In this document: positions 9,728-56,570 of the stretch, in pieces
Layout: each line of letters starts with the position of its first letter
How positions within the stretch are numbered: the stretch's first letter is position 1
Source: Halorussus gelatinilyticus
GTDB taxonomy: Archaea > Halobacteriota > Halobacteria > Halobacteriales > Haladaptataceae
DNA length: 64,000 nt
Reading direction: 5' to 3'
Assembly (NCBI RefSeq): GCF_023238445.1
Contig: NZ_CP096658.1
Location: 1,364,001-1,428,000 of the forward strand
Notes under the pieces: generated by a model
Database searches by the model: none
The model's input: only the letters and a program-made list of their open reading frames with translations
Told to the model about the DNA's origin: nothing
Program-made: the position numbers and the translations under genes

Positions 9728-10684
9728 ATGAAGACGCTCGGAACGGCGAGTGCCGCCCCCGGCGAGATTGACACCGGGCGGTTGCAGGTCGGCGAAACGC
9801 GTGACGGCGGCGAGTTCGGTCTCCCGGTCGCGGTCGTCAACGGCGCGGCGGACGGCCCGACGCTCTACGTACAGGCGGTCAGCGACGGCGACGAACTGAA
9901 CGGTCTCGGGGTCCTCCAGCGGGCGATTCCGCAGATTCCGCCCGCGGACCTCTCGGGGACGATTCTCGTGGTCGGCATCGTCAACTACCACGCCTTTCAG
10001 GTGGCCGAACACCGCAACCCCATCGACGACACGAAGATGAACCGCACCTACCCCGGCGACGAGTCGGGGACCTCCAGCGAGCGCATCGCGGCCGCGACCT
10101 TCGAGGCCGCCTCGCGCGCCGACCTGATTTTGGACCTGCATCAGGGCTCGACCAGTCAGATGCTCAACGAGGTCCGGGTCCGGTGCGGCCAGCGCCACCG
10201 CCTCCACGACGAGTGCCTCGAACTCGCCAAGGTTTTCGGCTGCGGGCACGTCCTCGACCAGAAGGGACCGGACGGCCAACTCGCCCGCGCGGGTCCCGAC
10301 GAGGGCATCCCGACCATCGACCCGGAACTCGGCGGCTGCGTGGGTTGGGACGAGGAGAGCATCCGGTACGGCGTCGAGGGCGTGTTCAACGTCCTACGCT
10401 ACTACGGCTTCCTCGACGGCGACGTGGACCTCACACCCCAGACTCGCGCGACCGGATTCGACCGCTACGGGTCGCCTTCGGGCGGTCTCGTCCGGTTCCG
10501 GAAGGAGTTGGGCGACGCCGTCGAGGTCGGCGACGTCATCTTCGAGGTGACCGATCCCTTCGGCCAACTGAAGGCGGAAGTGACCGCGGACGACCGCGGC
10601 GTCTTCTGGCGCTCGCGCCGCCTGCCCCAAGTGGCGACCGGCGAGTACGTCTGTTCGGTCGGCACTGACGTAGACGAGTTCTGA
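9728..10684 (+). CDS. Succinylglutamate desuccinylase/aspartoacylase-family zinc hydrolase
   Basis: A 318-residue member of the M14-like AstE/AspA family, which removes acyl groups from amino acids. Residues 50-60 read AVSDGDELNG where the family has GxHGxExxG, so the first zinc ligand His appears to be Asp53, with Glu56 kept. The other ligand, His138, is in LDLHQGS, and the substrate-binding MNRTYPG lies at 104-110. The C-terminal 70 residues form the usual beta domain. Of two nearby ATGs (9720 and 9728), the first meets a stop after two codons, so 9728 is used. The Asp-for-His change may alter metal binding. The substrate is uncertain. Confidence 0.78.
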   Translation: MKTLGTASAAPGEIDTGRLQVGETRDGGEFGLPVAVVNGAADGPTLYVQAVSDGDELNGLGVLQRAIPQIPPADLSGTILVVGIVNYHAFQVAEHRNPIDDTKMNRTYPGDESGTSSERIAAATFEAASRADLILDLHQGSTSQMLNEVRVRCGQRHRLHDECLELAKVFGCGHVLDQKGPDGQLARAGPDEGIPTIDPELGGCVGWDEESIRYGVEGVFNVLRYYGFLDGDVDLTPQTRATGFDRYGSPSGGLVRFRKELGDAVEVGDVIFEVTDPFGQLKAEVTADDRGVFWRSRRLPQVATGEYVCSVGTDVDEF

Positions 10685-10804
10685 GCGTCGCCTCCTGCAC
10701 TCGACCTGCGTCCTCCGCTCGACCTGCGGTCTCCCCCTTCGGCCGTCCCCCGAGCGCGGCGCTCCTCCGATAACTATTGATGCCCGAGCGCGACAGTACC
10801 GAGT

Positions 10805-11917
10805 ATGCCGACCGACCTCGCCTGCCCCGACTGCGGCCGGACCTACGACGCCGGCCCGGACGAACCGTGGCGCTGTGACTGCGGCCATCCGCTCGAATTC
10901 GCCGACCGCCCGCGACCGGACGGTCCCGCGCCCGACTTCGCCGAGTTGGACACCCGCGCCGGCCTCTGGGCGTTCGAGGACTTCCTGCCGGTCTCGCCCG
11001 AGGTCACGCTCGGCGAGGGGTTCACGCCGCTCGAAGAACCCGCCTCGGCGAACTGGGAAGAGAACGTCCAGTTCAAACTGGAGTACGTCTTCCCTTCGGG
11101 GAGTTTCAAGGACCGCGGCGCGACCGCGACCCTCTCGCGCGCCGCGCAACTGGGCGTCGAAACGGTCGTCGAGGACTCGTCGGGCAACGCCGGGGCGGCC
11201 ATCGCCCAGTACGCCGCCCGCGCCGGCATCGACGCCGACGTCTACGTCCCGGCCGACGCCAAGGACTCGAAACTCGCGGCCATCGAGCGCGTCGGCGCGA
11301 CTCCGATTCGCGTCGAGGGTACGCGACAGGACGTGACCGACGCCTGCATCGAGGCCGTGGAATCCGAAAACAGCGCGGGCTGGTACGCCAGCCACGCGTG
11401 GAATCCGGCGTTCTTCGCGGGCACTTCGACCTTCGCCTTCGAGGTGGCGGCCCAGCGCGACTGGGAAGTTCCGGACGCCGTGGTCACGCCGCTGGGCCAC
11501 GGCACGCTCTTCCTCGGAGCCTACCGCGGCTTTCGGGCGCTGAAGGCGGCCGGCTGGACCGACCGGATGCCCCGCCTGCTCGGCGCGCAGGCCGCCGGAT
11601 ACGCGCCCGTCGCCGAGGAACTGCACGGCGACGAGGCCGCCGCGGGCGACAACGCGGTCGCCGACGGCATCCAGATTCTCGACCCCGCCCGGAAGGACCA
11701 GATTCTCGCCGCCATCGACGCGACGGACGGCGACGCCATCGCGCTCGATTCGGACTCGGTCGCGGAGGCTCTCGACGGACTCCACCGCGGCGGGTTCTAC
11801 ACCGAACCGACCTGCGCCGTCGCGCCCGCCGCGCTCGCGGAGTTCCGCGAGCGCGGCGTACTGGACGAAGGGGACGAGGTCGTGGTGCCGCTGACGGGAA
11901 GCGGGCTGAAGTCGTGA
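10805..11917 (+). CDS. thrC: Threonine synthase-like PLP-dependent enzyme
   Basis: A 370-residue fold-type II PLP enzyme. The N-terminus has a small zinc-ribbon-like CPDCG...CDCGH (Cys7, Cys10, Cys24, Cys26), common in archaeal threonine synthases. The PLP lysine is Lys102 in SGSFKDRGA, and the phosphate/substrate loop is SSGNAGAAIAQYAAR. Threonine synthase makes threonine from O-phosphohomoserine. Haloarchaea usually carry several paralogues, some annotated as cysteate or diaminopropionate enzymes, so the reaction is probable rather than certain. Confidence 0.8.
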   Translation: MPTDLACPDCGRTYDAGPDEPWRCDCGHPLEFADRPRPDGPAPDFAELDTRAGLWAFEDFLPVSPEVTLGEGFTPLEEPASANWEENVQFKLEYVFPSGSFKDRGATATLSRAAQLGVETVVEDSSGNAGAAIAQYAARAGIDADVYVPADAKDSKLAAIERVGATPIRVEGTRQDVTDACIEAVESENSAGWYASHAWNPAFFAGTSTFAFEVAAQRDWEVPDAVVTPLGHGTLFLGAYRGFRALKAAGWTDRMPRLLGAQAAGYAPVAEELHGDEAAAGDNAVADGIQILDPARKDQILAAIDATDGDAIALDSDSVAEALDGLHRGGFYTEPTCAVAPAALAEFRERGVLDEGDEVVVPLTGSGLKS

Positions 11918-11927
11918 CGAGCAACTG

Positions 11928-11984
11928 ATCTCAAGTCTCTGCCGTACAGCGAGCGGTTCGAACGGGCGTAGGTGCACTTGAGAT
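11928..11984. repeat. 9-bp inverted repeat downstream of the threonine-synthase-like gene
   Basis: ATCTCAAGT (11928-11936) and ACTTGAGAT (11976-11984) are perfect inverted repeats separated by 39 nt, in the 90-bp convergent gap. A self-complementary GTTCGAAC lies between them. It may form a 3' stem-loop for one of the two converging transcripts. There is no T-tract, so it is not called a terminator. Confidence 0.5.
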
Positions 11985-12007
11985 AAGCGACTGCTCGGTT
12001 CCACCGC

Positions 12008-12460
12008 CTATCCGGCGCAGTTGGTCGTGTGGAAGATGGCGAGACGGGGGTCGTCGGTATCCGTTCCGGACTGTCCGAGCTGTGCGACAACCCCGAGACA
12101 CTCGGAATCAAACTCCGCAAAATCGAGTGTGTCAGCTTGCCTCTCTTGGCGGTCGTCTCGCCACGCAGAGAGGACGTAGGGCCCAGACCGCGTCGGATAG
12201 CCGGTGAACACGGCCGCCCCTGACCCGTTTGGGCCGTCCGCCTCCACTCGCTTCGACTCCCGATACACGGTCTCGCCCTCCCGTTCGATTCGGACGTGAA
12301 CCTTGTGTGGTTCGTCGTCCTGATTGAGCGCGGTCAGTTCGACCAGTTGCGGCGTCGTCGACTCCGACTCGCCGCCGAACGCCGTACACCCGGAAACGCC
12401 CGCGATACAGGCCATCCCCGCAGACTGGAGGAGGGAACGCCGACCGAGTTGGGGAACCAT
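12008..12460 (-). CDS. Tat-type lipoprotein, hypothetical
   Basis: A 150-residue exported lipoprotein. The start at ATG 12460 (MVPQLGRRSLLQ) places twin arginines at 7-8, a hydrophobic stretch, and a lipobox GVSGC with the lipidated Cys25. This is the usual haloarchaeal Tat lipoprotein layout. The mature part (about 125 residues) is a single beta-rich domain with HKVHVRIEREGETVYRES, like the small Ig-like domains of many haloarchaeal lipoproteins, and two cysteines near the C-terminus (SECLG and TTNCAG). The ligand and role are unknown. Confidence 0.8.
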   Translation of the reverse strand: MVPQLGRRSLLQSAGMACIAGVSGCTAFGGESESTTPQLVELTALNQDDEPHKVHVRIEREGETVYRESKRVEADGPNGSGAAVFTGYPTRSGPYVLSAWRDDRQERQADTLDFAEFDSECLGVVAQLGQSGTDTDDPRLAIFHTTNCAG

Positions 12461-12626
12461 ACCCCGTATCTCACAGTCGAGGGACGAATAATTTTCTGGA
12501 GAACAGCGCCACAACCCACTCGGCCACGTCACTGCTCCTTGAAGAAGGCCACTCGCCGACGGCGCGGCCGTCTACTGGGCGTTTCGCTCGGGCCCGTTCC
12601 GCGAGACGTAACACGTTCTGCCCCTG

Positions 12627-14018
12627 TCATTTCTCCGGATGAATCGGCGCATCGAACCCCCCGCGAACCAGCGGCTTGGCGATGTGCCTGCGAGCTTCCG
12701 GAGGTACCTCGTACCAGCCGACCTCCAGCTCCCGCTCGACCTCGCGTTCGACTTTCCCGTCCGCCGCGGTCTTGCAGTCCCGACACCGGTAGCCCTGCCC
12801 GGCCCCGGCGCTCTCCATCGACCGGCCGCAGTCCGGGCAGTCGGGGGTGACGAGTTCGGTCCGGTCCAACTCGCGCACGGCGAACTTTTCGAGTTTGAGG
12901 GTGCCGTCCGAGACTTCGCCGCAGGCCGCGATTCGGTCGCCGGGCCGGAGGTCGCGCACTCGGTCGCGGAAGCGTTTGGTCGGTTCGAAGGCGGCGCACC
13001 GGAGTTTCGCGCCGGATTCGGAGTCCTCCAGCGCGAAGAAGACGTGGCCGCCCCGTCGGGTCTCGGGCGCTTCGGCGACCGTGCCCTCGACGCGGTAGGC
13101 CCGGCCGTCCTCGACCGCTTCGAGACCGCCGGCGTCCCGGAGGTGGGCGTCGGTGCCCTGATTCGTCACGAAGAGCGCGCGGCGCGAGACCGGTTCGCTC
13201 TCGATGGCTTCCGCGACTTCCCGGACGGTGGCGTGGTCGTCGCCCCGAATCCCGTGGAGGATGGGACCGGGCGTGTGCGGGACGCAGACCAACTCGCCGG
13301 TCTCGCGATCCACGGTGTCCCACGCGGCGGGGTAGGCCGCGTCCGCGGCGTCGAAGACCGACTCGGCGTCTACCTCCCGAGGGGTCCCGACGCGCTCCCG
13401 TTCGCGGTAGGAGATGCACTCGTAGGTCCAGTCGGCGGCGATTCCGACGGAATCGCCGCCGCCGACCGCGGCCTGCCCGCCGAACGCTCTCCACGCGCCG
13501 ACCGCCGCGAGTGCGCCGATTCGTCCCCGTCCGAGTTTCCAGCCGTCGCTCCGGTAGCCCGCGTCCTCGATTACCGCCTCGGCGTCCTCGATTGCGAGGC
13601 GGTCGCGGACTGCGCTGCGAGCGAACTCCGCGACCGCTTCGGGCGCGTCTCCGGGGGCGCCCGGCGCGACGACGAGTCCGGGATTCGTCCGCGGGTCGTC
13701 GGTCTCGGCAACTCGGGCGACCTCCTCGCGGGCGATTTCGAAGGCCGTCTCCGGGTCGGCGTCGGTGTGGACCGCGAGCGCGGCGTTCCCGCGGGTCTTG
13801 TGTTCGACCGCGGGGTTGAGTCGGACGAGGAGCAGTCGCTCGACGCTCGCGCCCTCGTCGGGGTTGTCCGAACCCGCGCCCCCGTCCGAGTCGTCCGAAC
13901 TCGCGTCCTCGTCGGTGCGTCCGCCCTCACGCAGGCGCTCGGCGAGTTCGGCCGCGAGATAGGTCGTACACATCCCCCGTTCGCGGGAGTCGGTGTCGTC
14001 CACGCCGATGACCGTCAC
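12627..14018 (-). CDS. tiaS: tRNA(Ile2) 2-agmatinylcytidine synthetase
   Basis: TiaS converts the anticodon wobble cytidine of tRNA-Ile2 to agmatidine with ATP and agmatine, so that AUA is read as Ile; it is essential in Archaea. This 463-residue protein has the signature start MTVIGVDDTDSRERGMCTTYLA, a central catalytic domain (with GRGRIGALAAVGAWRAF), an OB-fold segment (about residues 275-390) and a C-terminal zinc ribbon CPDC...CRDC (about 395-420). All expected domains are present and the length is normal. An Asp/Gly/Ser-rich insertion (about 35-55) is a halophilic loop. Confidence 0.95.
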   Translation of the reverse strand: MTVIGVDDTDSRERGMCTTYLAAELAERLREGGRTDEDASSDDSDGGAGSDNPDEGASVERLLLVRLNPAVEHKTRGNAALAVHTDADPETAFEIAREEVARVAETDDPRTNPGLVVAPGAPGDAPEAVAEFARSAVRDRLAIEDAEAVIEDAGYRSDGWKLGRGRIGALAAVGAWRAFGGQAAVGGGDSVGIAADWTYECISYRERERVGTPREVDAESVFDAADAAYPAAWDTVDRETGELVCVPHTPGPILHGIRGDDHATVREVAEAIESEPVSRRALFVTNQGTDAHLRDAGGLEAVEDGRAYRVEGTVAEAPETRRGGHVFFALEDSESGAKLRCAAFEPTKRFRDRVRDLRPGDRIAACGEVSDGTLKLEKFAVRELDRTELVTPDCPDCGRSMESAGAGQGYRCRDCKTAADGKVEREVERELEVGWYEVPPEARRHIAKPLVRGGFDAPIHPEK

Positions 14019-22026: not shown

Positions 22027-22863
22027 ATGATTCCACCCATCGCAAGCAGGTTCGTCGCGGGGGAGTCGCCGGCCGAGGCGCTCGAACACGCCCGCGACCT
22101 GAACGACCGGAACGTGAAGGCCATCCTGAACCTGCTCGGCGAACACTACCACGAGCGCGCTCCCGCCGACGAGGACGCCGAGGCGTACCTCCGACTCGTG
22201 GCCGACATCGAGAGCGCGGCGGCGGAGGCGTGCATCTCGGTCAAGCCCTCGCAGGTCGGTCTCGACGTGGGGACCGAGGTCTTCCACGAGAACGTGGAGC
22301 GCATCGCGGACTACGCCGCCGACCGCGACGTGTTCGTCTGGATAGACATGGAGGACCACGACACGACCGACGCGACCCTCGACATCTTCGAGAAGTTGGC
22401 CCGGAAGCACGAGGGCGGCGTCGGCGTCTGCGTGCAGGCGAACCTCAAGCGCACCGACGACGACCTGGAGCGCCTCGCGGACCTCCCCGGCAAGGTTCGA
22501 CTCGTCAAGGGCGCTTACGACCCGCCCGCCGAGGTCGCCTACGAGGAGAAGTCCGCGGTCAACGCCGCCTACGAGCGCCAACTCGAATACATGTTCGAAC
22601 AGTTCGACGGCGGTATCGCGGTCGGAAGCCACGACCCCCGGATGATACGGCTCGCCGAGGAACTCCACGAGGAGTACGGCACCGACTTCGAGATTCAGAT
22701 GCTGATGGGCGTGCGCGAGGACGCTCAGACCGACCTCGCCGAGGAGTACGAGGTCTGGCAGTACGTCCCGTACGGCGACAAGTGGCTCTCGTACTTCTAC
22801 CGGCGCGTGATGGAGCGTAAGGAGAACCTGCTGTTCGCGGCCCGCGCCGTCCTCGGTCGATAG
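22027..22863 (+). CDS. Proline dehydrogenase
   Basis: A 278-residue FAD-dependent TIM-barrel enzyme that oxidises proline to pyrroline-5-carboxylate. Family motifs are ISVKPSQVGL near residue 75, a FVWIDMEDHDTTD strand, RLVKGAYDPPAEVAY (about 160-175) and the C-terminal YVPYGDKWLSYFYRRVMER, in which the Arg pair holds the proline carboxylate. It is monofunctional, as in Archaea and Gram-positives; no aldehyde dehydrogenase partner is nearby. A TATA-like acttaaag lies about 30 nt upstream. Confidence 0.88.
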   Translation: MIPPIASRFVAGESPAEALEHARDLNDRNVKAILNLLGEHYHERAPADEDAEAYLRLVADIESAAAEACISVKPSQVGLDVGTEVFHENVERIADYAADRDVFVWIDMEDHDTTDATLDIFEKLARKHEGGVGVCVQANLKRTDDDLERLADLPGKVRLVKGAYDPPAEVAYEEKSAVNAAYERQLEYMFEQFDGGIAVGSHDPRMIRLAEELHEEYGTDFEIQMLMGVREDAQTDLAEEYEVWQYVPYGDKWLSYFYRRVMERKENLLFAARAVLGR

Positions 22864-22936
22864 GCTGGACGGTCTTTCGCCGAGCTAATTCTCTGCATTT
22901 CGGGAACCGACGGCGTATTTTATCCCCGTAGAATCA

Positions 22937-22979
22937 AAATATATTCGTGTGGCAAATACTAACAACGGGCTGGGGGTGA
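22937..22979 (+). promoter_or_regulatory. TATA and Shine-Dalgarno leader of micropeptide 1
   Basis: An AT-rich atatatt element is followed by TAACAAC and a strong SD GGGGGTGA (22972-22979), four nt before ATG 22984. The 43 nt from atatt to the ATG align without gaps to the leader of micropeptide 2 (about 31 of 43 identical). Confidence 0.6.
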
Positions 22980-22983
22980 ACAC

Positions 22984-23052
22984 ATGGTTGACGTCTTCGC
23001 TTGGGGCTGTGGATACCACTACGGTTCCAGTCAAGTGATTTGCTTGGGATAG
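22984..23052 (+). CDS. Micropeptide 1 of a tandem pair (GCGYHYGS family)
   Basis: A 22-codon ORF, ATG 22984 to TAG 23052, encoding MVDVFAWGCGYHYGSSQVIC plus Leu-Gly. It shares M-x-D, GCGYHYGS, QV and the second Cys with the next micropeptide (13 of the first 20 residues identical). The shared SD leader and TATA indicate that both are expressed. Two Cys and one His could bind a metal or form a disulfide. It has no signal peptide. No known family is recognised; it could be a signalling or regulatory micropeptide, or a modified peptide. A T-tract terminator follows at 23136. Confidence 0.65.
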   Translation: MVDVFAWGCGYHYGSSQVICLG

Positions 23053-23135
23053 CGTCACCCGCCAGTCGAATCGTTCTCCGAACGCGTCGCGGTCGCGCGA
23101 CCTTCGCCGACTCAACCCACGAAACGCATCAATAC

Positions 23136-23149
23136 GCACGTTTTTGTGC
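23136..23149 (+). terminator. T5 tract with short stem after micropeptide 1
   Basis: GCAC-GTTTTT-GTGC gives a 4-bp stem around a T5 tract, 84 bp after the micropeptide 1 stop and before the second promoter. T-rich tracts end transcription in Archaea. Confidence 0.45.
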
Positions 23150-23171
23150 TGATTTAATGCTGAACCTCAAC

Positions 23172-23212
23172 GTATATTTACGTGGTAACTGATAACAACC
23201 TACTGGAGGTGA
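23172..23212 (+). promoter_or_regulatory. TATA and Shine-Dalgarno leader of micropeptide 2
   Basis: gtatattta (about 23172-23180) is followed by TAACAAC and the perfect SD GGAGGTGA (23205-23212), four nt before ATG 23217. The layout is the same as for micropeptide 1, 233 bp upstream. Confidence 0.6.
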
Positions 23213-23216
23213 ACTC

Positions 23217-23306
23217 ATGATAGACTTCAAGTTCTTCGGTTGCGGGTACCACTACGGTTCCCAGCAAGTGGTCTGTGCGCAGACCGATTCCGACGGGCAT
23301 CGGTAG
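23217..23306 (+). CDS. Micropeptide 2 of a tandem pair (GCGYHYGS family)
   Basis: A 29-residue ORF, ATG 23217 to TAG 23306, beginning MIDFKFFGCGYHYGSQQVVC and ending with a polar TDSDGHR tail that micropeptide 1 lacks. The GCGYHYGS-x-QV-x-C core is kept while the residues around it differ, which suggests selection on the peptide rather than a recent DNA copy. It has a perfect SD. Downstream (23310-23350) nested inverted repeats ACTACG/CGTAGT and CGGAC/GTCCG may form a 3' structure. The function is unknown. Confidence 0.65.
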   Translation: MIDFKFFGCGYHYGSQQVVCAQTDSDGHR

Positions 23307-23415
23307 TTCACTACGTCGCGGACGGCGGTCCGTGACGAGCGTTCCGTAGTCGGCCGCCGCGAAGTTCGGCCGATAACATCTAGTTTATACACCTGCGTTC
23401 GGATACTCCGACCAA

Positions 23416-24060
23416 ATGTCCTCGTGGAAACGCGACATCGCAAGCGGTCTCATCGTCCTCGCCCCCCTGATAGTTACGACGTACATCATCGCCTACCTGT
23501 ACTCCATGCTGGCGGGCCTCCCGTTCCTCGAAAAAATCAAACCGTACGAACTCGTCCCCGGACTGATAATCCCCTCGTCGGCGCTCCGGGTCACCATCGT
23601 CCTGCTGGTGTTCTCGATGCTGGTCCTCAGCGTCGGGTACATGATGCGGACCGCGGTCGGGTCGCTCGTGGAGAACGCCATCGACGGCCTGATGAACCAG
23701 GTTCCGGGCCTCCGCGTCGTCTACAACGCCTCGAAGATGGCGGCCGAGACGGCCCTCTCGGACTCGACCGACCTGCAAGCGCCCGTCAAAGTCGAGGCGT
23801 GGCAGGGGATGCGGATGACCGCGTTCAAGACGGGGAAAACGACCGACGACGGCCGCGAACTGCTCTTCCTCCCGACCGCACCGAACATCACCACCGGGTT
23901 CGTCGTCGAGATGAAACCGAGCGAGTTCGAGGAGACCGACGAGACCGTCGAGGACGCGTTGACCCGCATCCTGAGCGCCGGGTTCGGCGAGACCAGCGAG
24001 TCGGGCATCCCCATCGACGTGGAAGACGAGAAGGAGACCAAATCGCCGCCGCCGCAGTAA
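23416..24060 (+). CDS. DUF502 family membrane protein
   Basis: A 214-residue protein with two N-terminal membrane helices (about residues 9-31 and 55-79), then MNQVPGLRVVYNASKMA, the DUF502 hallmark, and a cytoplasmic beta-rich domain with TGFVVEMKPSEFEE. The C-terminal 20 residues are charged and disordered. DUF502 proteins occur in Bacteria, Archaea and plants (the plant homologues are LIKE-COV), with no established biochemical role. A TATA-like gtttatac lies about 30 nt upstream of ATG 23416. Confidence 0.85.
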   Translation: MSSWKRDIASGLIVLAPLIVTTYIIAYLYSMLAGLPFLEKIKPYELVPGLIIPSSALRVTIVLLVFSMLVLSVGYMMRTAVGSLVENAIDGLMNQVPGLRVVYNASKMAAETALSDSTDLQAPVKVEAWQGMRMTAFKTGKTTDDGRELLFLPTAPNITTGFVVEMKPSEFEETDETVEDALTRILSAGFGETSESGIPIDVEDEKETKSPPPQ

Positions 24061-29774: not shown

Positions 29775-30752
29775 TCAGTCCCCGGTAACCGCATCGCGCG
29801 CCCAGAAGTCGCTGTCCTTCTTCAGCTTCGGGACCCACGTGTCGTCGGTCTTCGACAGCAGCGCCACCCGCGAGACCGGCACGTCCTTTAGATACTCGTG
29901 GTCGGGCATGTGTTCCTGAATCTCCTCGGAGAACGCCACCACGTCCTCGTGGTCGAGCATCGACTCGCGGGCCACTCTGTCGCGCGACTCGCCGACGTGC
30001 ATGTAGGACTTGAGTTCCACGAAGTCGGGGTCCGCGCGCTGGTAGAATCCGGCGTACCACTCGGGGTGGTGGACGTTCTCGCCGCCGACGAGCGTCGTCC
30101 GGAGGACGGTCCGGGTCTCGTCCTTGTCGGCCAGCACGTCCATCGTCTCGACCAGTTTCTCCCACGCGTCGTCCTCCATCGCCTTGACCACCTCGTCGAA
30201 GGTGTGGCGCTCGGGGGCGTCCACGCTGACGTAGAGTTGCGTCGGGTCGCAGTCCCGGATGATGTCGGGCCGCGTGCCGTTGCTCACGAGGAAGGTGGTG
30301 ATGTCGCGGTCGTGGAACGCGTCGATGAGTTCCGGGAGATAGGGGTAGAGCGTCGGCTCGCCGTCGAGGCTGATGGCGACGTGGCGCGGTTCCATGCTCT
30401 CCTCGAAGCGCTCGCGGGGCACCTCGTCGTTGCCGCCGAACCCAGACAGGAGCTTCTTCTGGAGTTCGATGCTGGCGTCCACGACCGCTTCCGGATCGTC
30501 CCATTCGACATCTCCGAGTTCGTACGCGTGACCGGCGTGATCCCGCCAGCAGAAGACGCACCGCTCGTTGCACTTGACGACGGGCGTCATCTGAATACAG
30601 CGATGTGACTCGATCCCGTAAAATATATTTTTGTAACATTTTCCTTCTCCTCGAAGGGCGTTGGCCGTCCATCCACACGTTTGGGCCGCGGTGTGATTCT
30701 CGCTGTGGTAGTCCGGGCTGTCTACCTGTTTCGGGCCGTCCGATTCGCTCAT
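29775..30752 (-). CDS. taw1: tRNA 4-demethylwyosine synthase
   Basis: Taw1 (TYW1 without the flavodoxin domain) is a radical SAM enzyme that builds the tricyclic wyosine precursor at G37 of tRNA-Phe from pyruvate. The 325-residue protein has the radical SAM cluster CNERCVFCWRD (CX3CX2C) and the second-cluster cysteines in the N-terminal region (TCGW, KCYKN, HRCIQM). Family segments SLDGEPTLYPYLPELI and FVELKSYMHVGESRDR are present. The start at ATG 30752 (MSESDGPK) is preferred; ATG 30773 adds seven residues. Confidence 0.93.
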   Translation of the reverse strand: MSESDGPKQVDSPDYHSENHTAAQTCGWTANALRGEGKCYKNIFYGIESHRCIQMTPVVKCNERCVFCWRDHAGHAYELGDVEWDDPEAVVDASIELQKKLLSGFGGNDEVPRERFEESMEPRHVAISLDGEPTLYPYLPELIDAFHDRDITTFLVSNGTRPDIIRDCDPTQLYVSVDAPERHTFDEVVKAMEDDAWEKLVETMDVLADKDETRTVLRTTLVGGENVHHPEWYAGFYQRADPDFVELKSYMHVGESRDRVARESMLDHEDVVAFSEEIQEHMPDHEYLKDVPVSRVALLSKTDDTWVPKLKKDSDFWARDAVTGD

Positions 30753-30883
30753 TGGAGGACAGATGGTGTCCAAGGGTAAAACGTTCTTTCCTCTCCGGTT
30801 CCCAGCCTTCTCGCTGCTCCTCTCGGACGTCCCCCGACGGGGAATCGACCGCGACCCGACCCCCAGAACCGGGAGGTGAGGCT

Positions 30884-54145: not shown

Positions 54146-55138
54146 TTACGCCAGCGGCGTCCGCTCGACGACCTGCCCGTCCACGGTCGGGTACTGCTCG
54201 ACGATTTCGCCCTCCTCCACGTCGCCCTCCTCTATCATCTCCTCCAGCAACCACCACGCCAGTTCGATGTGGTCGGACTTGACGGTGTAGAACTCCTCGG
54301 GCACGCCCAACTCTTCGAGGCGGCGCTCGGGTTCCCACGTCTTGCCGTAGACCAGCGTCCCGTCGTCGGTCACGTCGTCGAACTCCCGGCGGATGTTCCG
54401 GGCCATGCGCTTCATCCGGTTGCGGTGCTGGGCGGCGTCCTTGAAGACCGAGGTACAGAAGTAGACGCGCTCGTGGTCGCCCATCGCGTCCAGAATCTCC
54501 TTCGACCCCTCGACGGCGCTCATGTGGCCGTCCTGCAGTTCGTAGCCCTCCTCCTGCATCCGGCGGAAGTTCCCGTCCGACATCTCGAACTCGTTGACGT
54601 TACAGAACTCGGCCGCGCCCTCGTCCAAGAAGTCGAGGAACTCCTCCTCGGCGCGAATGCCGGGAATCTCGAACGCGGGCGTCAGGCCCTCCTCGCGGGC
54701 GATGTATAGAATCTCTTCCCACTCGGTGCCGTGCATCTCGCCCCACAGTTCGAGCGGCGGGTGGAACCGAATCTCGTCGAGTCCGGCCTCCGAGAGGCGG
54801 CGCATGTTCTCGCGGCCGCCCGTGATGCCGGTGTAGAGGTGCGTGTGGTGGTCCTCGCCGAACTCGTCTTTGAGCAGGCGGAGGTACCGACAGGTCTTCT
54901 CCATCGCCTCCTGGGGTTCGCCGCCGGTGATGGAGGTGCCGAGCGCGTCCATGCGCTTGGCCTCCGCGAGTACGTCCTCGTCGGACTCGACTTTCCGCTC
55001 GTTGGCGTACACGTCGGTCACGTTCTTGCGGTTTTCGCCGAGGGGGCAGTAGAAGCAGTCCCGCTGGTCGCAGTAGCCGTAGACGAAGAGGACCATCTTG
55101 CCGCCTTTGGCGCACTGTTCGCAACCCTTCGATATCAT
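54146..55138 (-). CDS. Radical SAM protein (COG2108-like) with atypical cluster spacing
   Basis: A 330-residue radical SAM enzyme of an archaeal family without known product. The cluster motif is CDQRDCFYC (Cys23, Cys28, Cys31), spacing CX4CX2C rather than the usual CX3CX2C, and an additional CEQC (Cys6, Cys9) lies at the N-terminus. ITGGEPQEA is the SAM-binding GGEP motif. Other segments, such as HTHLYTGITGG and AAEFCNVNEFEMSD, are conserved in COG2108 as I recall. A Cys-rich micropeptide unit lies 137 bp upstream. The substrate is unknown. Confidence 0.85.
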   Translation of the reverse strand: MISKGCEQCAKGGKMVLFVYGYCDQRDCFYCPLGENRKNVTDVYANERKVESDEDVLAEAKRMDALGTSITGGEPQEAMEKTCRYLRLLKDEFGEDHHTHLYTGITGGRENMRRLSEAGLDEIRFHPPLELWGEMHGTEWEEILYIAREEGLTPAFEIPGIRAEEEFLDFLDEGAAEFCNVNEFEMSDGNFRRMQEEGYELQDGHMSAVEGSKEILDAMGDHERVYFCTSVFKDAAQHRNRMKRMARNIRREFDDVTDDGTLVYGKTWEPERRLEELGVPEEFYTVKSDHIELAWWLLEEMIEEGDVEEGEIVEQYPTVDGQVVERTPLA

Positions 55139-55274: not shown

Positions 55275-55343
55275 CTACGCCCAGCAGTCGTCCGGCGTAC
55301 ACGGTTCGGGACAGCAGGTGTTGAACAGGTCGGTCAGTAGCAT
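55275..55343 (-). CDS. 22-residue cysteine-rich micropeptide
   Basis: A 22-codon ORF from ATG 55343 to TAG 55275 encoding MLLTDLFNTCCPEPCTPDDC plus Trp-Ala. Four cysteines in 11 residues (CC-x3-C-x4-C) could bind zinc or an iron-sulfur cluster or be modified. A perfect GGAGGTGA lies six nt upstream, a TATA about 48 nt upstream, and a hairpin-T6 terminator directly downstream, so it is a complete transcription unit of about 120 nt. The radical SAM gene lies beyond the terminator. No known family is recognised. Confidence 0.65.
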   Translation of the reverse strand: MLLTDLFNTCCPEPCTPDDCWA

Positions 55344-55463: not shown

Positions 55464-56570
55464 ATGCTGTTGGTCCTCTGCGTGGACCTCGACGACGACC
55501 TCGGCCGCAAGACCGACTTCGATACCCCCGTCATCGGCCGCGACAACGTCGAAGCCGCCGCGGTCTCGTTAGCGACCGCTGACCCAGAGGACAGCGACGT
55601 GAACGTCATGTTCGAGGGCGTCCACCTCGCGGACCGCATCGAGGACGAGACCGTCGAAGTCGCGGTCGTCACGGGGACAGAGACCGGCGACGTCGCCGCG
55701 AACCGGGCGGTCGGCGACGAGGTGGACGAGGTGCTGGCCAGCCTCTCGACCCGCGAGGAGGTCCAAGCGGTCATCGTCACCGACGGCGCGCAGGACGAGA
55801 GCGTGATTCCGGTCATCCGCTCGCGGGTGCCCATCGACGGCGTGCGCCGGGTCGTCGTCCGGCAGGCACAGGACCTCGAATCGATGTACTACACCATCAA
55901 GCAGGTGCTGGACGACCCCGAGACGCGCGGGACCATCCTCGTCCCGCTGGGCATCCTGCTTCTCATCTACCCCCTCGCCATCATCTCGGACTCGCTCGGG
56001 CTTCCCGGCGCGGCGGTCTTCGGCGTCACCTCGGGCCTGCTGGGGCTCTACGTCCTCGGCCGGGGACTCGGCGTCGAGCGCCTCCTCGACCGCGCGGCCG
56101 AGAAGGCCAGAAATAGCCTCTACGCGGGCAGAGTGACGCTAATCACCTACGTCGTCGCGGCCGCCCTGCTGGTCGTCGGCGGGGTCCGCGGCGTCGAGAC
56201 TCTGGAGTCCGTCGAGGCGGCGACCGGCGACGCGATGGGACCGCTCGAAGTACTGGCGGCGCTGGTCCACGGCGCGGTGACGTGGTTCACCGCGGCGGGC
56301 GTCACCACCAGCCTCGGTCAGATCACCGACGAGTATCTGGCCGACCGCTTCCAGTGGCGCTACCTCAACGCGCCGTTCTACGTCCTCTCCATCGCGCTCG
56401 TGTTGCACGCCATCAGCGCGTACTTCCTCCATCGAGTGCCGCTCGAACTCCCGCGGCTCACCTACCTCGCGGTCATGCTCACGGTCGGGACCCTGCTCGG
56501 TCTCACGAGCACGCTGGCGTTCGCCATCGCGGAGTCGCGGCGGTCCCGCCGGGCCGAGCAGGTCGGTTAG
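55464..56570 (+). CDS. DUF373 family membrane protein
   Basis: A 368-residue archaeal protein. The cytoplasmic N-terminal domain (about residues 1-150) begins MLLVLCVDLDDDLGRK, the DUF373 hallmark, and contains AVGDEVDEVLA and VIVTDGAQDESVIPVI; six membrane helices follow from about residue 155. The family is conserved across Euryarchaeota with no known function. ATG 55464 fits the domain start. Its last bases overlap the stop of the convergent gene at 56567 by four nt. Confidence 0.9.
   Translation: MLLVLCVDLDDDLGRKTDFDTPVIGRDNVEAAAVSLATADPEDSDVNVMFEGVHLADRIEDETVEVAVVTGTETGDVAANRAVGDEVDEVLASLSTREEVQAVIVTDGAQDESVIPVIRSRVPIDGVRRVVVRQAQDLESMYYTIKQVLDDPETRGTILVPLGILLLIYPLAIISDSLGLPGAAVFGVTSGLLGLYVLGRGLGVERLLDRAAEKARNSLYAGRVTLITYVVAAALLVVGGVRGVETLESVEAATGDAMGPLEVLAALVHGAVTWFTAAGVTTSLGQITDEYLADRFQWRYLNAPFYVLSIALVLHAISAYFLHRVPLELPRLTYLAVMLTVGTLLGLTSTLAFAIAESRRSRRAEQVG

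Follow-up and report, generated by a model that had tools for sequence, protein, structure and literature searches.

The window, which is the whole stretch of 64 kb that was analysed and part of a 3.67-Mb contig, carries two short cysteine-bearing open reading frames (ORFs) arranged in tandem between a proline dehydrogenase gene and a gene for a DUF502 protein. The features of this locus, and a further member of the same family found elsewhere in the window, are as follows.

22027-22863, + strand: flanking proline dehydrogenase gene (Pro_dh, PF01619), assigned by Pfam
22936-22945, + strand: A/T box (TATA-like) of copy 1, AAAATATATT, placed by the A/T runs across the family
22972-22979, + strand: Shine-Dalgarno (SD) sequence of copy 1, GGGGGTGA, read from the sequence
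22984-23052, + strand: micropeptide gene copy 1, MVDVFAWGCGYHYGSSQVICLG, with an orthologue at the same locus in genome G008
23141-23145, + strand: T5 tract between the copies, a possible terminator, read from the sequence only
23173-23180, + strand: A/T box (TATA-like) of copy 2, read from the sequence and fitting the SD + A/T pattern
23205-23212, + strand: SD sequence of copy 2, GGAGGTGA, read from the sequence
23217-23306, + strand: micropeptide gene copy 2, MIDFKFFGCGYHYGSQQVVCAQTDSDGHR, which is MIDFKFFGCGYHYGSQQVVCA plus an 8-residue extension through loss of a stop codon; the orthologue in G013 is MISITFFGCGYHYGSQQVVCA, followed by its stop
23314-23337, + strand: inverted repeat CGTCGCGGA...TCCGTGACG, 3' of copy 2, with pairing kept in related units
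23416-24060, + strand: flanking gene for the DUF502 protein (PF04367), by which the orthologous locus was recognised in each of the 18 Halorussus genomes
55275-55343, - strand: further family member, MLLTDLFNTCCPEPCTPDDCWA, with four cysteines and the SD GGAGGTGA, found by the architecture screen

The first-pass annotation had described the pair as homologous micropeptide genes, and both ORFs are indeed present, with 13 of their first 20 residues identical. When the initiator methionine is left out, 12 of 19 residues agree, compared with a maximum of 7 in 20,000 shuffles. The spacing of 233 bp given for them is correct from ATG to ATG, but the gap from stop codon to ATG is 164 bp. As claimed, an SD precedes both copies, in the form GGGGGTGA at copy 1 and GGAGGTGA at copy 2. 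The T tract proposed as a terminator comprises five T only, and the better-conserved 3' feature is the 8-bp inverted repeat downstream of copy 2. The eight C-terminal residues of copy 2 derive from a lost stop codon, CAG at 23280, where G013 and a decayed copy in G008 have TAG. Copy 1 differs from its G008 orthologue by three synonymous changes and one conservative nonsynonymous change.

A codon pattern for GCGYHYG was found in 4 of 17 genomes of the same genus and in none of the 22 other sampled genomes. Homologues with a GCGYHYG or GCGYYAG core lie at the same locus in four other Halorussus genomes with the frame conserved. The interval between the proline dehydrogenase and DUF502 genes was compared in all 18 Halorussus genomes. 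It holds two units in the genome analysed here (G000), three in G008 and one each in G013, G003 and G011; in the remaining 13 genomes it holds none and is mostly a short intergenic gap, with an unrelated insert in G015. The three tandem units of G008 (L501, G008 C6, 16670-17170, - strand) comprise an intact one, a decayed middle one, in which the start codon is gone and GCGY has become GRGY (Cys to Arg), and a diverged one, MFEIFAWGCGYYAGAGEVVCLG. The 8-bp inverted repeat follows 6 of the 8 units at this locus; each of the 6 related units compared keeps all eight pairs, two of them by way of a G-U change.

When leader and ORF together served as a sequence model, weaker matches came up in G005 and G008 at unlinked loci, and these matches encode very different short cysteine-bearing peptides. 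We then inspected every GGAGGTGA-N(2-8)-ATG site in G000, G005 and part of G008. The sites fall into two classes: those with a GC-rich leader precede ordinary genes or chance frames, whereas those with an A/T-rich leader precede short cysteine-bearing ORFs. All such sites behind an A/T octamer, 6 of 6 in G000 and 10 of 10 in G005, belong to short ORFs of the two-cysteine type. Widened to the Haladaptataceae as SD plus upstream A/T run, the screen brought the short ORFs with this architecture (A/T promoter, GGAGGTGA, start codon) to 56 distinct ones, of which 52 have at least two cysteines, compared with 3 of 21 short ORFs behind GC-rich leaders; the sequence model, and not the architecture screen, supplied a few of the loci, and the unbiased subsets agree. 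Cysteine makes up 11.2% of residues in the screened ORFs. Two ORFs with the same architecture have no cysteine: MTFPFPWTPIYPLL (L358, 1554, + strand) and MLMDAALIFYTEQKATRVNL (L371, 1496, - strand).

The anatomy of the family was described from 53 distinct two-cysteine peptides, the family ranging from 14 to 29 residues. The N-terminus is hydrophobic, its commonest residues being M-[FI]-[GDLS]-[FI]-x-P-[LF]. The first cysteine lies at residues 9 to 13 in 46 of the 53 peptides and the last lies 0 to 3 residues from the C-terminus in 42; neither mean position was reached in any of 2,000 shuffles. The loop between them is of variable length, 1 to 10 residues in nearly all of the peptides. In charge, the majority range from neutral to slightly acidic; 22 of the 53 contain neither Lys nor Arg, and none has a membrane-spanning stretch. 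Conserved across the family are its gene architecture, a hydrophobic N-terminus and the two placed cysteines, and not the GCGYHYGS core that the first reading took as invariant; that reading did not see that the tandem pair belongs, as a single subfamily, to a dispersed family.

Among 51 members, the A/T run has its median position 42.5 nt 5' of the start codon; the SD begins a median of 13 nt 5' of it. The usual distance from TATA box to transcription start in archaea is about 27 nt, so the 5' untranslated region would be only about 15 to 17 nt long, essentially the SD. We infer that the mRNA starts just before the SD; the ungapped 43-nt leader of the earlier description would be mostly core promoter, in keeping with A/T runs centred about 42 nt 5' of the start codon family-wide.

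G000 has nine peptides at eight loci, G005 has 12 and G008 at least 14 intact ones; the counts from our own genome were obtained by pattern search and may be underestimates. Members also occur in G001, G002, G003, G006, G011, G013, G014 and G015, and in G020, of a sister genus. Both flanks are homologous in 11 of the 12 locus groups tested, and one group, adjoining a Trm112p-like gene, is common to Halorussus and the sister genus. The neighbours are diverse (aconitase, thermosome, phosphoglycerate mutase, methylmalonyl-CoA mutase, tRNA methyltransferase and others); the member at 55275-55343 lies between genes for a radical SAM protein (54146-55138, -) and a DUF373 protein (55464-56570, +). 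No neighbour is common to the family loci, whose flanks are unrelated housekeeping genes, and the surroundings of the peptide genes showed no signal peptide, exporter, protease or immunity gene. At the thermosome locus G000 encodes MFGFVEAIYCAPFSGACIMV, and G008, its closest sampled relative and its partner in the tree, the unalignable MIVEALCTAGYCPCDAFPPYYCP; both map to a single site in G004, a genome without peptides, in which four syntenic sites hold no remnant of SD or peptide and the DUF502 site is also empty. G002 has a divergent subtype, MELSDLTEKQHSEGDFIPCICFVDE, with an acidic N-terminus unlike the remaining family, as an identical tandem pair (L296, 3450 and 3943, +) and one variant (L312, 2576, -).

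No family member was seen outside the Haladaptataceae among the class-wide matches examined. The SD + GCGY pattern, searched in 391 genomes of the class, occurred in Halorussus only, apart from two non-homologous chance matches. An MFG pattern in 212 class genomes had its genuine matches in Halorussus only, six matches in other genera lacking such ORFs, and the SD + A/T pattern in 174 class genomes revealed no two-cysteine micropeptide at about 25 non-Haladaptataceae loci examined. In a search of 85k species genomes and of viral contigs, those of the listed GCGYHYG matches that were examined are chance frames, apart from the ones in Halorussus (L148; L055 is G011). Among the MFG matches listed for viral contigs there are just short phage ORFs of unrelated look, and tblastn against plasmids and phages gave no match. 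Exact patterns miss variant SDs, of which copy 1 is an example, and these absences apply to pattern-visible members. Viral contigs L375 (4039), L383 (10853) and L452 (6140) share a conserved short phage ORF with a strong SD and two cysteines (MFGFLTFGASFWECFWFGKCK and variants), which is similar in form to the family but probably unrelated. In genus g23 (L324, L325, L327 and L329-L332) a conserved A/T box and SD precede an 86-residue protein with a TTG or GTG start (MSTRTDGPDGF...).

Synonymous and nonsynonymous changes were compared in 13 orthologue pairs, hand-chosen as alignable, not all independent and descriptive of the alignable subfamilies only: pS was 0.38 and pN 0.13 (pN/pS 0.35), with 71 of 137 differences at third codon positions. 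Alignable orthologues are under purifying selection, and subfamilies such as GCGYHYG, FCTCKEFPT, PLHYCDAD and IWCDYLGC are conserved rather than diversifying. Homologues in relatives, a conserved frame and third-position change bear out the earlier proposal of selection on the peptide, and its remark that no described family has this core agrees with our searches: the peptides queried had no match in Pfam or NCBIfam, the best hit of copy 1 among PDB sequences had E = 2.3, Rfam gave nothing at the locus with E up to 0.5, and no family, motif or paper covering the peptides was met in the literature searched, most subscription journals lying outside the search. We concluded that these genes are a new family of selected micropeptide genes defined by their architecture, and that they are dispersed, vertically inherited, SD-led single genes of Halorussus and a sister genus.

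In archaea the lanthipeptide synthetase LanM is reported mainly from Halorussus and also from Haladaptatus (PMC12144867). In the 18 Halorussus genomes, LanM and the peptides are both present in 10, both absent in 6 and discordant in 2, G010 and G011, the latter only 62% complete. The association of the peptides with class II LanM has a Fisher p of 0.0025. A correlated-evolution test gave p = 0.0026 on a three-gene tree in which some genes are missing for some genomes and one node is very weak; peptide counts at its tips are provisional, with presence or absence unaffected. As a control, Cas1 showed no association (5/11 vs 2/7). The GCGYHYG locus lies 7 to 11 kb from a LanM gene in G003, G008 and G013; among 20 LanM neighbourhoods scanned, these loci alone were within range, with no other family member. 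The neighbourhoods hold ordinary LanA-like genes of about 40 to 60 codons without the SD architecture of the peptide family. With 18 genomes and a single tree behind it, the association is solid enough to be pursued; it could reflect an export, protease or regulatory path in common, or just a common lifestyle. On contig L499, a LanM gene (10055-13189, -) and a LanA-like ORF (13556-13714) adjoin a homologue of the window gene at 29775-30794, which we take to encode a TYW1-like protein; the counterpart interval in the window, 30.8-40.2 kb, has other content.

The reading that we favour, tentatively and at rather less than an even chance, is that the genes encode peptides with a cysteine-closed loop and a hydrophobic tail for competition or signalling, each expressed from its own TATA promoter. 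The promoter would give a short mRNA with its 5' end little beyond the SD, and the SD would ensure strong initiation in genomes in which most other promoter-proximal genes seem to be leaderless. The two cysteines might close a small ring, by a disulfide or an enzyme-made bond, leaving the hydrophobic tail free, and the product could act outside the cell or at membranes in antagonism or signalling, as small peptide toxins and pheromones do. Translation, ring closure and the outward-facing role are what we infer from the sequences: the tail with its variable loop, copy-number variation, tandem copies, absence of the whole set from some species and sequence turnover at fixed loci argue for an outward role over a fixed housekeeping one. 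Points against it are the lack of signal peptide, exporter, protease and immunity genes nearby, the subfamilies that are conserved and the mostly neutral to slightly acidic charge.

Close behind the outward-facing role in likelihood comes an intracellular one, although taken by itself it too is rather doubtful. The peptides would then be micro-proteins whose two cysteines bind a partner protein or a metal or thiol and tune an enzyme or stress response. Purifying selection in several subfamilies, stable syntenic loci, the lack of an export signal and the mostly neutral to acidic charge agree with this, as do the roles in stress and growth that two reports give to haloarchaeal cysteine-pair micro-proteins (PMC6562870, PMC10716476). 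With cysteine spacings from 1 to 10 residues there is no common metal site, and this variable loop length counts against one fixed site; a CPxCG-like motif occurs in 1 of the 53 peptides, unalignable peptides occupy the same loci in sister species, and whole sets are missing from some species.

It is improbable that the genes are type I toxins held by antisense RNA, or dual-function small RNAs bearing an SD, in which the peptide matters little. Tandem copies, single intergenic genes, a strong SD and a hydrophobic start would suit such elements, and Haloferax volcanii has small RNAs that associate with ribosomes (PMC12482152), but the cysteine pair and the codon-level constraint indicate that the peptide matters, no membrane-spanning stretch is present, and Rfam has no match in the tandem-pair region. 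Orphan lanthipeptide precursors modified in trans by LanM would explain why peptides and LanM agree in presence or absence in 16 of the 18 Halorussus genomes and why some GCGYHYG loci lie near it. This is a slim prospect, since lanthionine is impossible in the 11 of 53 peptides without Ser or Thr, the leader motif is absent from all 53, and the true LanA-like genes beside LanM are of another build. Small selfish elements copying the promoter-SD-peptide unit around the genome, as the many scattered copies whose front ends are alike, the tandems and the differing peptides at one locus might suggest, are very improbable, for the loci are fixed and syntenic between species, once between genera, and no transposase or terminal repeat was seen at those examined.

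Returning to the favoured reading of looped peptides for competition or signalling, a bolder and unlikely version of it is that the Haladaptataceae possess a dispersed, fast-turnover set of cysteine-loop micropeptides tied to the lanthipeptide machinery, made as leaderless precursors of about 20 codons and used in communication or warfare. The LanM link makes a role in chemical communication directly testable. Genes of about 20 codons fall under the usual limits of annotation, and a simple promoter + SD signature uncovers a whole family of them in GC-rich archaeal genomes, whose sequences argue strongly that the peptides are in use; if translated, its products would be among the shortest conserved ones of archaea.

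Among known systems, the CPxCG zinc-finger micro-proteins of Haloferax volcanii are likewise haloarchaeal, very small and cysteine-bearing; they are below 70 residues and have two C(P)XCG motifs (PMC10716476, PMC11241148). The present peptides have 14 to 29 residues and mostly two cysteines, and we did not assign them to that group: CPxCG or CxxCG occurs in one peptide, and there singly. Bacterial type I toxins such as Ibs/Sib are, like the family, about 20 codons long, tandem and intergenic, but they span the membrane and have no conserved cysteine pair. Archaeal class II lanthipeptides (LanA/LanM; archalans), of which Halorussus and Haladaptatus are two of the main carriers (PMC12144867), resemble the family as short cysteine-bearing peptides and co-occur with it. 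LanA precursors have a median of 51 residues, the leader motif Kx(Y/F)(D/E)xx(F/Y) (PMC10105419) and a clustered LanM, whereas the family has no leader motif and is unclustered; assignment as LanA was rejected on that motif, on the peptides without the Ser and Thr that thioether rings require together with Cys, and on the distance from LanM. The peptides also differ from typical cationic antimicrobial peptides in charge. The peptide halocins of haloarchaea are processed from larger secreted precursors; the present family shares with them small size and a possible role in competition, but differs, going by their description, in that its ORFs are themselves of about 20 codons and encode no signal peptide.
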